Of a DNA stretch of 64,000 nt, positions 46,651 through 57,389 are shown piece after piece. The translations under genes and the position numbers were made by a program. The stretch is from Caulobacterales bacterium (lineage in GTDB: Bacteria; Pseudomonadota; Alphaproteobacteria; Caulobacterales; Caulobacteraceae): the NCBI GenBank assembly GCA_019510435.1, contig JAEKKJ010000006.1, positions 186,001 to 250,000 on the forward strand. The letters run 5' to 3'. The notes under the pieces were generated by a model. That model made no database searches. It was not told the origin of the DNA and worked only from the letters and a program-made list of their open reading frames with translations. Numbering within the stretch: the stretch's first letter is position 1; every line of letters starts with the position of its first letter.

Positions 46651-47433
46651 CTACTGCCCCCGGAAGGCCGGCGTCCGCTTCTCGTTGAAGCTGGCGACGC
46701 CCTCGCGGCGGTCCTCGGTGCGGAAGAGCTCATTGTAGACGGTGAGTTCCAGGTCCATGGCCTGCTTCAGGTCCAGGTCCAGGCCGCCATGCACCACGCG
46801 CTTCAGGCCGCGGACCGACAGGGGCGCGCGGCTGGCGATCTGGGCGGCGACGCCCAGCACCGTGTCCATCAGCGCCTCGGGCGGCGTGACCGCGCTGACT
46901 AGGCCCCAGTCCAGCGCCTGCTGGGCGGCGAACGGCGCAGCGGTGATCATGATCTCCAGGGCGCGGCGCGGGCCGACGGCGCGGGTCAGGAGCTGGGTGC
47001 CGCCGAGGCCGGGCATGATCCCCAGCCCCGCCTCGGGCAGGCCGAACCGCGCGCTCTCGGCGGCATAGGTGAAGTCGCAGGCCAGGCTCATCTCGCAGCC
47101 GCCGCCCATGGCCGCCCCCTGCACGGCGGCGATCACCGGGACCGGGCAGGCCAGCTGGGCGCGGATCATGGCCTCGAACAGGCGGTGCTGCTCGGCCCAG
47201 GCCTCGTCGGTCATGCCGTTGCGCTCCTTCAGGTCCGCTCCGGCCTGGAAGTGCTTGCCGGCGCCCGCCAGGATCACACAGCGCAGCGCCTCGTCCGCCC
47301 GCAGCCGGCTCCACGCGTCCAAGAGGTCGCGGCCCATCTGCGAAGAGAGCGCATTGGCGACCTCCGGCCGGTTGAAGGTGATGACCACCAGGCCCGGGTG
47401 GGCCTCGGCCACGATGATCGTCTCGTAGGTCAT
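46651..47433 (-). CDS. enoyl-CoA hydratase (canonical crotonase)
   Basis: A 260-residue crotonase with both hydratase glutamates in place: [13 protein letters not shown] and [18 protein letters not shown]. It hydrates trans-2-enoyl-CoA in beta-oxidation or branched-chain acid breakdown. AAGGGA precedes ATG 47433. The acyl-CoA dehydrogenase gene lies upstream on the same strand, and the two steps are consecutive, so they probably share a transcript. A 98-bp perfect inverted-repeat unit sits between them (47472-47569) and would form a strong hairpin in that mRNA. Confidence 0.93.
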
Positions 47434-47471
47434 CTCGTCCCTTCCCTGCGCGCCGCAGGCGCCCTTTAAGA

Positions 47472-47569
47472 TGTCCACGAACCACACGAACCACACGAAC
47501 ACCCAAGCCACGAGGGCGGAGCGCCGCAGCCCTTTTCTTCGTTCGTGTGGTTCGTGTGGTTCGTGGACA
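47472..47569. repeat. perfect 29-bp inverted repeat pair (solo, gene-less relative of 48843-49275 element)
   Basis: Arms at 47472-47500 and 47541-47569 are exact reverse complements, with 40 bases between. Each arm is itself built of direct repeats of CACACGAAC. Eighteen bases, GTCCACGAACCACACGAA, are identical to the terminal repeats of the GxxExxY element at 48843-49275, and the remaining arm bases differ at three positions. The 40-bp interior has no trace of that gene. It lies between the acyl-CoA dehydrogenase stop and the crotonase start. A translation of this region (VHEPHEPHE, FVWFVWFVD) is an artefact of the repeat. Confidence 0.92.
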
Positions 47570-47594
47570 AATTCTCCTGGCGCTGCGCGCCGGG

Positions 47595-48749
47595 TCAGAA
47601 GCTCTTCGGCTGGCCCAGCACGTGGGTGGCCACGTGGCTGAGGATCAGATTCGTGGAGATGGGAGCCACCTGGTAGAGCCGCGTCTCGCGGAACTTGCGC
47701 TCGATGTCGTACTCCTCGGCGAAGCCGAAGCCGCCGTGGGTCTGCAGGCACATGTCGGCGGCGAACCAGCTGGCCTCGGAGGCCACCAGCTTGGCCATGT
47801 TGGCCTCGGTCCCGCAGGGCTCCCCCGCCTCGAACAGCGCCGCGGCCCTGTCCACCATCAGGCTGGCCGACGTCATCTGCACATAGGCCCGGGCCAGCGG
47901 GAACTGCACGCCCTGGTTCTCGCCGATGGGCCGGCCGAACACCACGCGGTCCTTGGCGTACTGGCTGGCGCGGTCGATGAAGAACCTGGCGTCGCCGATG
48001 CACTCCGACGCGATCAGGATCCGCTCGGCGTTCATCCCATCCAGGATGTATTTGAAGCCCTTGCCTTCCTCGCCGACCAGGTTCTCCGCCGGGACCTCCA
48101 GGTCCTCGAACAGCAGCTCGGTGGTGGCGTGGTTCAGCATGGTGCGGACGGGCGTGATCGTCAGGCCGTTCCCGCGCGCGGCGCGCATGTCCACCAGCAG
48201 CACGCTCATCCCCGCCGAGCTCTTCGCCTCGTCCCGCGGCGAGGTGCGGCAGAGCAGGACCATCAGGTCGGAGTGCTCGGCGCGGCTGATCCACAGCTTG
48301 CGGCCGTTGACGACATATTTGTCGCCGACCTTCCGGGCGAAGGTGGTGATCCGGGTGGTGTCGGTGCCGGCGTCCGGCTCGGTGACCCCGAAAGCCTGCA
48401 GCCGCAGCTCGCCGCTCGCCACCTTCGGCAGATAGGCCGCCTTCTGCGCCGGCGTGCCGTGCCGCAGCACCGTGCCCATGGTGTACATCTGGGCGTGGCA
48501 GGCGCCGCCGTTGCAGCCCGAGCGGTGGATCTCCTCCAGCACCGCGGTCGCCGCCCCGAGCCCCAGGCCTGAGCCCCCGAACTCCTCCGGGATCAGCACC
48601 GACAGGAACCCGGCCTCGGTCAGCGCCTGGACGAACGCCGTCGGATAGGCCCGCTCGCGGTCCAGCTCGCGCCAGTATTGGCCAGGAAACCGCGCGCACA
48701 GCTTGCGCACCGCCTCGCGGATCTCGGGAAAGCTCTCTTGGGTCACCAC
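47595..48749 (-). CDS. acyl-CoA dehydrogenase
   Basis: A flavoprotein of 384 residues with the acyl-CoA dehydrogenase three-domain layout: FGVTEPDAGTDTTRITT (FAD/substrate loop) and LQTHGGFGFAEEYDIERKFR, whose glutamate is the C-terminal catalytic base type. It oxidises acyl-CoA to enoyl-CoA and passes electrons to ETF and then ETF-QO (encoded at 6713-8389). Chain-length or branching preference cannot be read. Start GTG 48749 or GTG 48746, with AGAGAGG upstream. A small palindrome lies just upstream at 48767. Confidence 0.93.
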   Translation of the reverse strand: MVTQESFPEIREAVRKLCARFPGQYWRELDRERAYPTAFVQALTEAGFLSVLIPEEFGGSGLGLGAATAVLEEIHRSGCNGGACHAQMYTMGTVLRHGTPAQKAAYLPKVASGELRLQAFGVTEPDAGTDTTRITTFARKVGDKYVVNGRKLWISRAEHSDLMVLLCRTSPRDEAKSSAGMSVLLVDMRAARGNGLTITPVRTMLNHATTELLFEDLEVPAENLVGEEGKGFKYILDGMNAERILIASECIGDARFFIDRASQYAKDRVVFGRPIGENQGVQFPLARAYVQMTSASLMVDRAAALFEAGEPCGTEANMAKLVASEASWFAADMCLQTHGGFGFAEEYDIERKFRETRLYQVAPISTNLILSHVATHVLGQPKSF

Positions 48750-48766
48750 CCCTCTCTGCCACGCCG

Positions 48767-48781
48767 ACCCTGGGTCAGGGT
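48767..48781. promoter_or_regulatory. ACCCTG-GGT-CAGGGT palindrome upstream of acyl-CoA dehydrogenase gene
   Basis: Perfect 6-bp arms with a 3-bp centre, 18-32 bases before the GTG start. Next to it (48790-48820) is the only AT-rich stretch nearby, a plausible promoter for the leftward dehydrogenase-hydratase transcript. This would place the palindrome in the early transcript or promoter, where a TetR/GntR-type repressor could act. No regulator gene is adjacent. Confidence 0.35.
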
Positions 48782-48841
48782 AGACCGACGTCTATGTTCA
48801 TGTATTGTTCTGTTCTCTGAGGCGCGGCGAGGCCCTTCGAA

Positions 48842-49243
48842 ATGGTCCACGAACCACACGAAAAGCACGAACGGTTCCTGCACGGGGAGGAGGTCTTCCG
48901 CATTCAAGGGGCGGTGTTCGAGGTGAATCGGATACTCGGCGCCGGCTTTTTGGAAGCGATCTACCAGGAGAGCCTGGCGCTAGAGTTTAGGGCCCGCGGG
49001 ATTGAATTCGTCGAACAGCCGACACTCGCCGTCGACTATAAGGGGACACGGCTGCAACATGCCTATGTCCCGGATTTCATCTGCTTCGGCCGCGTGCTGG
49101 TGGAGCTGAAAGCGCTTGTCGCCCTCGCGCCCGAGCATCGGGCGCAAGTCCTCAACTACCTCAAGGCGGCCAAGCTGCGGGTCGGCCTGCTCGTGAACTT
49201 CGGATGCGCGCCCAAGGCGCGGGTCGAGCGGCTCATGATGTGA
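48842..49243 (+). CDS. GxxExxY family protein (PD-(D/E)xK nuclease-like)
   Basis: A 133-residue protein. GFLEAIY (Gly35, Glu38, Tyr41) is the family's name-giving motif. VPDFI (Asp78) followed by VELKAL (Glu88, Lys90) forms a PD...ExK pattern as in PD-(D/E)xK nucleases. The C-terminal part, QVLNYLKAAKLRVGLLVNFG, is the usual conserved end of the family. The first ten residues (MVHEPHEKHE) are encoded by the terminal inverted repeat, so the repeat provides the start codon; the conserved domain begins near residue 16. The family is widespread, often multi-copy, and as far as I know has no demonstrated function. Nuclease activity is inference from the motif only. Confidence 0.85.
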   Translation: MVHEPHEKHERFLHGEEVFRIQGAVFEVNRILGAGFLEAIYQESLALEFRARGIEFVEQPTLAVDYKGTRLQHAYVPDFICFGRVLVELKALVALAPEHRAQVLNYLKAAKLRVGLLVNFGCAPKARVERLMM

Positions 49244-49275
49244 TTGTTCGTGCTTTTCGTGTGGTTCGTGGACCA
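48843..49275. mobile_element. 433-bp element: GxxExxY gene bounded by perfect 30-bp terminal inverted repeats
   Basis: Left arm 48843-48872 and right arm 49246-49275 are exact 30-bp reverse complements. The gene between them nearly fills the unit: its ATG uses the first bases of the left arm and its stop lies two bases before the right arm. The arms share an 18-bp core with the solo pair at 47472-47569. I see no target-site duplication (flanks read CGAAA and GTTTT) and no transposase. The unit sits between divergent genes. The mobile nature is inferred from the flanking repeats and the second copy. Confidence 0.7.
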
Positions 49276-49366
49276 GTTTTCAAGGACGACTGAGCCAGGG
49301 TGCGGACTGGCCGGTGACACACGATGTGCAAGCCGCCATCCTCTCGCAAAATGAGGGAGGCTGACG

Positions 49367-51022
49367 ATGTCCGCGCTCAGCTATGTCCACGGGGCCAGTG
49401 ACAAGCCGCTGATCGGCAAGACGATCGGGGCCATGTTCGACGAGGCCTGCGCGGCCCATCCGGACGCGCTGGCGCTGGTGTCGCGTCACCAGGGCATCCG
49501 CTGGACCTACGGCGAGCTGAAGGCGCGGGTGGACGCCTTCGCCGCAGGGCTGCTGGCGCTGGGCCTGGAGCCGGGGGACCGGGTGGGCGTGTGGTCGCCG
49601 AACTGCGCGGAGTGGGTGATCACCCAGTACGCCACCGCCAAGGCCGGCCTGATCCTCGTGAACGTCAATCCGGCCTATCGCCTGAGCGAGGTGGAATACG
49701 CCCTGAACAAGGTGGGCTGCCGCGCGCTGGTGACCGCCGTTCGGTACAAGACCAGCGACTACCTCGGCATGGTGCGCGAGCTGCGCGAGGCCGGCCGGCT
49801 GCCGACGCTGGAGGCGGTGATCACGATCGGCGACGACCCGCACCGCGGCTGCCTCGCCTTCCCTCACGTCCTGGCCACCGCCAGCCGCGCCGACCGCGCC
49901 CGCCTCGCCGAGATCGGGCCGCAGCTGCAGTTCGACGATGCGATCAACATCCAGTTCACCAGCGGCACCACCGGCTTTCCCAAGGGCGCGACGCTCTCGC
50001 ACCACAACATCCTCAACAACGGCTTCTTCACGGGCGAAGCCATGGGCCTGAAGGCCGGCGACCGGGTGTGCATTCCGGTGCCGCTCTATCACTGCTTCGG
50101 CATGGTCATCGGCAATCTCGGTTGCCTCACCCACCTCGCCACGGTCGTCTACCCCAGCGAGGGGTTCGAACCGGTCAGCGCGCTGGAGGCCGTCGAGGCG
50201 GAGCGCTGCGTGGCCCTGTTCGGCGTGCCGACCATGTTCATCGCCATGCTGGGCCATCCCGAGTTCTCCCGCTTCGACCTGACGTCCCTGCGCACCGGCG
50301 CCATGGGGGGCTCGCCCTGCCCCATCGAGGTGATGCGCCAGGTGGTGGACCGGATGCACATGCCCGAGGTGACCAATGTCTATGGCATGACCGAGACCTC
50401 GCCCGTCAGCTTCCAGACCAGCACGGCGGACACGCTGGAACGGCGCGTGTCGACGGTTGGCCGCGTCCATCCGCACCTGGAGGCCAAGATCGTCGACGCC
50501 GACGGCCGGATCGTCCCCCGCGGGCAATCCGGCGAGATCTGCACCCGCGGCTATTCGGTGATGACCGGCTACTGGGGGGACCCCGAACGAACCGCCGAGG
50601 CGATCGACCCGGGCGGCTGGATGCACACCGGCGACCTGGGCGTCATCGACGCGGACGGCTACGGCAACGTCGTCGGCCGCATCAAGGACCTGGTGATCCG
50701 CGGTGGCGAGAACATCTATCCGCGGGAAGTGGAGGAGTTCCTCTACCGGCATCTCGCCATCCAGGACGTGCAGGTGATCGGCGTGCCCGACCGGAAGTTC
50801 GGCGAGGAGCTGTGCGCCTGGATCGTGCTCAAGCCCGGCGCGGCGCTCACGGAGGACGAGGTGAGATCGTTCTGCCAGGGGCAGATTGCGCACTACAAGA
50901 TTCCAAGGCACATCCGCTTCGTGGAAGGCTTCCCCACCACCGTCACGGGGAAGGTGCAGAAGTTTGCCATGCGCGAAGCCATGATCGCCGAACTTGACCT
51001 GATGCTGGAAAGAACGGCGTAG
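49367..51022 (+). CDS. AMP-binding acyl-CoA synthetase (medium/long-chain fatty-acyl-CoA ligase type)
   Basis: An ANL-superfamily ligase of 551 residues. The AMP-binding P-loop is [15 protein letters not shown] (about residue 202 on), the A5 motif is [10 protein letters not shown]7 is MHTGDLG, and the A10 catalytic lysine is in [11 protein letters not shown] near the C-terminus. It activates a carboxylic acid to its CoA thioester with ATP. The sequence is close to ACSF2/AtuH-type ligases. GAGGGAGG precedes the ATG. The carboxylase beta-subunit gene starts nine bases after its stop, so the activated acid may be a branched or terpenoid acid that is then carboxylated. Confidence 0.93.
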
Positions 51023-52669: not shown

Positions 52670-52754
52670 CAACCGCGGAAAACGCAGAAAACGCGGAAGG
52701 TCCTGCCCGACGGCGCAGCCTTCTCCTTCCGCGTCTTTCTGCGTTTTCCGCGGT
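52670..52754. repeat. long inverted repeat (30/31-bp arms) between carboxylase beta and alpha genes
   Basis: The left arm 52670-52699 begins AACCGCGGAAAACGCAGAAA; the right arm 52724-52754 is its reverse complement except for one inserted base. A 24-bp interior separates them. The sequence family is distinct from the CACGAACCACACGAA repeats but has the same build, and it sits inside an operon in the same way as 47472-47569. The 167-bp gap contains nothing else except the GGAGG ribosome site of the next gene. Confidence 0.85.
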
Positions 52755-52790
52755 TCAAACGACAGCGCCTATGGCGCGCGGAGGCGCTTG

Positions 52791-57247: not shown

Positions 57248-57389
57248 TTCCCTCCCTTAATGGGGAGGGACAGCTCGCCGGAGGCGAGCAGGGTGGGGAA
57301 GTCTCGGCCAGTCCGGAAGGGCGGAGACCGGCCCCCACTCCCCCACCCTGGCCGCTTCGCGGTCTTTCCCTCCCCATTAAGGGAGGGAA
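57248..57389. repeat. hairpin-rich dispersed-type repeat with perfect 23-bp terminal inverted repeats
   Basis: Arms at 57248-57270 and 57367-57389 are exact reverse complements (TTCCCTCCCTTAATGGGGAG at the left), and each arm is itself nearly palindromic. Nested inside are GCTCGCC-GGA-GGCGAGC (57273-57289) and the pair CAGGGTGGGG/CCCCACCCTG (57289-57298/57341-57350). It is built like the repeats at 33681 and 39066 but is a different sequence family. The TAA stop and the last codons (ISLP) of the aldo/keto reductase lie inside its right arm. Confidence 0.85.

Follow-up and report, generated by a model that had tools for sequence, protein, structure and literature searches.

A GxxExxY gene framed by genome-private arms of a dispersed hairpin family, with gene-palindrome pairing recurring across bacterial phyla

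Bacterial genomes very commonly contain dispersed palindromes. MITEs and insertion sequences have terminal inverted repeats and gene-less derivatives. A homing endonuclease gene is a nuclease gene that sits inside its own target, one conserved gene. In REP-RAYT systems, which are chromosomal, a gene lies between inverted copies of palindromes dispersed in the genome (PMC3733652). In the part of that 2013 survey consulted, GTAG-type REPs come with RAYT enzymes; the CGTC-tagged REPs, i.e., dRS3, RPE-4, and RPE-6, are presented without a dedicated transposase (PMC3733652). One published mention of the GxxExxY family places such a gene near a reverse transcriptase. A literature search for GxxExxY, PF13366/TIGR04256, GIY-YIG, or DUF559 together with palindromes, which left most subscription journals and preprints outside its scope, did not find the pairing described.

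In this study, we describe a GxxExxY gene in a 64-kb window, i.e., the whole stretch of DNA analysed (G000:C1:186001-250000), of a host genome (G000) assembled in 58 contigs. By its best protein matches with a name, the host is probably a Phenylobacterium. An earlier note on the window had reported one GxxExxY gene between perfect 30-bp inverted repeats. The repeats are identical as inverted copies at 30 of 30 positions and hold the open reading frame (ORF) as reported (Table 1).

Table 1. Features of the window, and further nuclease loci of the host genome for which a contig is given
Feature	Location	Strand	Description
GxxExxY gene	48842..49243	+	ORF with ATG start, 133 aa; profile matches
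Left arm	48843..48872	+	Three CACGAA cores, 9-bp spacing
Right arm	49246..49275	-	Inverted copy of left arm
LexA-type box GTTC-N7-GTTC	48796..48810	+	Pattern scan; upstream of GxxExxY gene
Gene-less hairpin, same family as unit	47472..47569	.	29-bp arms; fold z -9.65
Gene-less hairpin, different dialect (CCGCGGAAAACGCAGAAA)	52671..52755	.	20-bp exact arms; fold z -9.91
GIY-YIG unit L291	G000:C1, about 503.7 kb		496 bp; LexA-type box inside unit
GIY-YIG unit L299	G000:C8, about 355.6 kb		495 bp; LexA-type box inside unit
DUF559 genes L290 and L294	G000:C1, about 307.8 kb; G000:C8, about 58.5 kb		LexA-type box

The unit, its predicted product, and the upstream box

Widened to 33 nt (48840-48872 / 49246-49278), the arms are 97% complementary. 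The A of the ATG lies one base ahead of the perfect left arm, and the stop codon ends two bases short of the right arm. Use of the arm as the start codon, which had been suggested from this copy, holds for some copies of the gene; others start downstream of the arm. A palindrome scan of the window (12-bp exact seed, 600-bp limit) gave exact arms of 12-14 bp apart from four palindromes, namely the unit (30 bp), 47472-47569 (29 bp), 52671-52755 (20 bp), and 57248-57389 (23 bp). The two hairpins in Table 1 are built on the same grammar as the unit arms. The arms of 57248-57389 (TTCCCTCCCTTAATGGGGAGGGA) are similar to the repeats that frame DUF559 genes. No known RNA family reached its gathering score in 47000-50000.

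The window protein matched TIGR04256 with 128 bits (cut-off 35) and PF13366 PDDEXK_3 with 130 bits (cut-off 22). GxxExxY lies at residues 35-41, followed by D78, E88-x-K90, and Q102xxxY106. In an alignment of 63 sequences, K90, Q102, and Y106 are invariant, and D78 and E88 are conserved at 90% or more. The predicted structure has a pLDDT of 91.4, and its top fold matches among those listed are nucleases of the Cas4 / RecB / lambda-exonuclease type, including Cas4 SSO0001. A profile search of solved chains for sequence relatives gave no match at an E value of 1 or less. The conserved D, E-x-K, and QxxxY and the fold place the protein in the PD-(D/E)XK superfamily as a predicted nuclease, in line with the PD...ExK pattern that had been noticed. 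PDDEXK_3 was the sole domain detected by profile search, and the description of a unit that encodes no transposase stands.

The box upstream of the gene reads GTTCATGTATTGTTC. The window has one more GTTC-N7-GTTC box, and we take this pattern to be the alphaproteobacterial LexA consensus. The pattern GTTC-N7-GTTCT occurred 34 times in the genome versus 4 times for the control. Among the 30 of these 34 loci that were read, one box lies upstream of recA, and more lie upstream of imuA-, dnaE-, dnaQ-, and comM-like genes (names judged from translations). Within the genus, 16 of 25 GxxExxY loci have the exact box upstream, compared with none of the 25 downstream windows, a few of which were incomplete. 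The counts are not independent because several of the loci are orthologous. By its box, the gene would belong to the LexA (SOS) regulon and may be induced by DNA damage. None of the 80 GxxExxY loci of the broader survey described below had the box, and six LexA-type patterns tried there gave no excess; damage control would therefore be a feature of this clade at most.

Dispersed hairpins and turnover at their sites

A 25-bp core of the arm was searched in the host genome with up to 3 mismatches. It gave 40 forward and 38 reverse matches, versus 0 and 0 for a reversed-pattern control, and nearly all matches in the fetched loci pair into hairpins. From 44 loci, 39 arm pairs were tabulated; as one hairpin was doubled, they represent 38 elements, i.e., 37 gene-less hairpins of 75-136 bp and the gene-bearing unit. 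The exact core is private to this genome within the sample of 60 genus genomes drawn from a larger group: it has 15 copies here and none in the other 59. Two copies are the unit arms and 13 lie at nine further places, every one a hairpin; 48843-49275 is the only gene-bearing copy. A chance palindrome is ruled out by the dispersed core matches, the arm lengths compared with other palindromes of the window, and the genome-private core.

Single-strand folding of the two gene-less hairpins in Table 1 was far better than that of shuffled sequences. Hairpin loops are mostly unrelated, also between copies with identical arms; a class with longer loops shares small inner hairpins. The arms of one element change jointly. 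Their third spacer is equal on both arms in 28 of 38 elements, and shuffles gave a mean of 16.1 and a maximum of 26 of 39 rows. Element-specific matching ends one base outside the arm (first base outside, 0.86 versus 0.49; next ten, no excess). Arm matching alone could be explained by hairpin-templated correction without the GxxExxY enzyme.

Target-site duplication was sought around the 37 hairpins, and flanking direct repeats showed no clear excess over shuffles. Repeats of 5 bp numbered 12 (shuffle mean 7.1, maximum 14), and those of other lengths were at or below the shuffle mean or close to it. In view of this result, and of the sites that related species often share, the autonomous movement of a mobile element suggested in the earlier note is not supported. 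The gene-less hairpins could also have arisen from the gene by deletion, but a short likeness past the arm, seen by eye in one long-loop class, was too weak to support this. In the genus, small G+C-rich hairpins, with TGTC often following them, border the periodic hairpins. Those outside 47472-47569 and 52671-52755 are likewise gone wherever the periodic hairpin is gone.

The unit site was compared in 30 genus loci. The gene is present in four (G000, G031, G044, and G011, the last cut by a contig end). Twelve have both flanks without the gene, one was partly read, and in 13 the far side did not align. Of the 12 gene-less sites, three carry such sequence: a half arm in one, a gene-less hairpin in another, and nested hairpins in a third (G019). 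A fixed position in all relatives, which the earlier note had named as a refuting result, was thus not seen. A hairpin occurs at the 47472 site in six of 30 loci and in four dialects; 15 loci are empty, and nine could not be judged. At the 52671 site, six of 12 genomes have a hairpin (mostly in differing dialects), three are empty, and three are missing. Orthologous sites can therefore have a hairpin, lack it, or have it with both arms rewritten together. The 25 GxxExxY loci read in the genus occupy six or more places, of which five are common to at least two species.

G025 and G054 form the closest pair. Their flanks, compared over about 700 bp, have identities of 97.6 and 98.6%, and the gene is 71% identical. 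At third codon positions, the values are 48% in the GxxExxY gene versus 95% in a flanking gene, and identity drops at a break no more than about 60 bp beyond the arms. This contrast points to an old, selected allele that was swapped as a unit, or to flanks that were swapped around it. The flanks (~98%) exceed the 89-94% identity of another region of this pair, so they may also have been exchanged recently around an old unit. Exchange of the unit inside unchanged flanks, as in homing, was seen in this one pair, where reverse flow is possible. Fifty orthologous pairs could be read into the downstream flank, and in every one of them the flank is more conserved than the gene (means 87 versus 67%), which faster evolution alone could explain. 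The site of the intact genes of G025 and G054 is occupied in G030:C17 by a GxxExxY pseudogene (L280) with one stop and a different repeat type at its 5' end.

Pairing of nuclease genes and palindromes in other genomes

The GxxExxY family was found over the cut-off in 40 of 348 Pseudomonadota genomes. At least five strict arm matches occurred in 16 of the 40 gene-bearing genomes versus 7 of the other 308 (Fisher p 6e-12; counts tallied by hand from the gene and arm tables); kinship is a confounder of this association. In three of the seven arm-rich genomes without the gene, the matches resemble coding tandem repeats or the control is equally high, and the same holds for 12 of the 18 arm matches of G088. 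In the best represented family, the median was 6.5 arm matches in 22 genomes with the gene versus 1 in 17 without it (p 6e-4). Fewer than five strict matches were found in 24 of the 40 gene-bearing genomes. G361 and G167 have 14 and 9 strict matches, and a GxxExxY gene was not found in them; it may have been lost, missed, or replaced by a different family.

For a broader survey, the best 80 GxxExxY loci from a scan of named genomes were used, and a frame was defined as an inverted repeat that spans the gene with a score of 14 or more. Frames were present at 57 of 80 loci versus 0 of 58 displaced control windows. Cross-pairs of arms also reached this score in 101 of 800 cases, as the arms follow a common grammar from genome to genome (approximately ACCRCNRA cores spaced 8-10 bp apart). 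The remaining 23 loci score under 14. GxxExxY genes elsewhere thus do have flanking repeats; their absence was the other refuting result named in the earlier note. The view of gene and arms as one evolutionary unit is supported. By record titles, the framed loci belong to Planctomycetes, Acidobacteria, Proteobacteria, Chloroflexota, Omnitrophota, Armatimonadetes, Verrucomicrobia, Bacteroidota, Hydrogenedentota, Nitrospinota, Sumerlaeota, and TA06, together with two contigs labelled Methanosarcinales; most of these records are metagenome bins and may be contaminated. In a phylum sample of 30 loci, drawn with no control, 24 of 28 readable loci scored at least 14. In 20 genomes picked from the 80 for their CAC dialect, the arm pattern had 2 to 112 matches each and the control none.

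In the genus, the gene lies outside any frame scoring at least 14 in 9 of 22 rows, and in seven of these nine a forward arm follows straight after the stop codon (judged by eye). A second layout, with a hairpin beside the GxxExxY gene and a forward arm directly 3' of it, was noted at L269, L271, L273, L274, L275, L276, and L099. The family was present in 7 of 72,556 plasmid records and in 0 of 50,697 phage records, and these counts rule out phage or plasmid cargo. Four viral contigs carry a relative.

The same layout was found with two other nuclease families. In the host genome, two GIY-YIG genes are bounded exactly by inverted repeats of the TGTCATCCCGG type, 47 bp long in L291 and 40 bp in L299. 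The DUF559 genes L290 and L294 are framed by palindromic repeats of the CTCCTCTCCC and CCTTCTCCC types. In a class-wide sample, frames were counted for 27 of 30 GIY-YIG loci and, after loci that were weak or incomplete had been set aside, for 20 of 30 DUF559 loci. GIY-YIG genes were framed in 14 of 27 cases versus 0 of 24 displaced windows and 16 of 400 cross-pairs, and DUF559 genes in 13 of 20 cases versus 0 of 20 displaced windows and 63 of 400 cross-pairs. Without the host genome rows, the counts are 13/26 and 12/19, respectively. The LexA-type box is rare in this sample (3 of 26 GIY-YIG and 2 of 20 DUF559 loci, host genome included). Because the host genome loci of both families were first picked up by the LexA scan, the boxes at these loci do not count as independent evidence. 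The TGTC/CGTC...CCA repeats that frame GIY-YIG genes resemble CGTC-tagged REPs.

Proposed reading and comparison with known systems

We propose, with a probability of about one half, that this unit is the one copy with a gene in a palindrome family dispersed through the genome, and that its predicted nuclease likely cuts or trims the arms, which break repair would then copy. The gene lies between two halves of a repeat that this genome has at dozens of other sites without it, and such pairing is found again in many bacterial phyla; the protein therefore probably acts on the repeats and would help to copy or rewrite them. After DNA damage, LexA repression would be lifted in this clade, and the GxxExxY nuclease would cut or trim extruded palindromes. 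A second palindrome or an incoming allele would serve as the template of break repair, so that the arms and, at a gene site, the gene too would be copied. Fold-back synthesis at the break would keep arms matched and loops unrelated. As in REP-RAYT, a single enzyme would serve both the arms around its gene and the copies that lack a gene, but a nuclease of the Cas4/RecB type and homing-like repair would take the place of a tyrosine transposase.

Transposition-like spread, in which MITE-like hairpins move whole and the nuclease is a minimal transposase, is unlikely. TnpA-REP and TnsA of Tn7 are partly comparable to a nuclease in that role. Inverted copies of a dispersed element on either side of the gene, filled and empty sites, and the nested hairpins of G019 agree with such movement. 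It is less favoured because target-site duplication is lacking around the 37 hairpins and copies with identical arms mostly have no common loops; the protein, moreover, has a PD-(D/E)XK domain only.

We consider it quite improbable that the protein is a host repair enzyme that processes palindromes or broken ends after damage, with the hairpins as tolerated substrates or as regulatory or terminator structures and no selfish spread. The LexA-type box, the near absence from plasmids and phages, and the old alleles under selection fit this explanation, but the patchy distribution (40/348 genomes) does not, and it predicts neither an arm private to one genome and common to its hairpins nor dialect changes at fixed sites. 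That intergenic hairpins enclose a short gene by chance or at hot spots, with quasi-palindrome correction keeping the arms alike, would agree with the end of matching one base beyond the arm, which is expected of templated correction, but this explanation is already disfavoured and very improbable in view of the frames (57/80 versus 0/58 displaced windows), the genome-level association, and two more nuclease families each framed by a different palindrome type.

The proposed cutting and copying of palindromes may extend further. We suggest tentatively that at least three unrelated nuclease families (GxxExxY, GIY-YIG, and DUF559), each in its own palindrome family, cut, spread, and rewrite palindromes by break repair in genome-private dialects. 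Such palindromes would make up a second world of repeats, served by nucleases and not by transposases. This would supply the missing enzyme for CGTC REPs and periodic hairpins. The layout predicts an enzyme-substrate pair for the GIY-YIG and DUF559 families as well. A nuclease gene in a palindrome, with genome-private arms and a damage-response box, is a concrete enzyme-substrate candidate. If the proposed reading is true, the origin of many intergenic hairpins would be explained, and the GxxExxY family would gain a function.

Among known systems, MITEs and insertion sequences have terminal inverted repeats and gene-less derivatives in common with the unit; unlike them, the unit is without a transposase, and no target-site duplication was seen at its 37 related hairpins. 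Cas4, RecB, and lambda-exonuclease share the fold and the D, ExK, QxxxY pattern with the GxxExxY protein, which, unlike them, stands alone with about 115 residues; the unit encodes neither a cas nor a recombination partner for it. As in homing endonuclease genes, the gene lies inside its possible own target, and a unit is replaced in place at one site; the target, however, would be a dispersed palindrome, not a single conserved gene. CGTC-tagged REPs, as far as the survey's consulted part describes them, are short dispersed palindromes too, but the GxxExxY arms form a different, periodic family. By the same partial source, REP-RAYT systems (REPtrons, TnpA-REP) are like the unit in that a gene is flanked by inverted copies of a dispersed palindrome. 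Their enzyme is an HUH tyrosine (Y1) transposase and that of the unit a predicted PD-(D/E)XK nuclease; their palindromes carry the GTAG tag, whereas the unit has arms of ~30 bp with an 8-10-bp period and no GTAG tag in the arms read.
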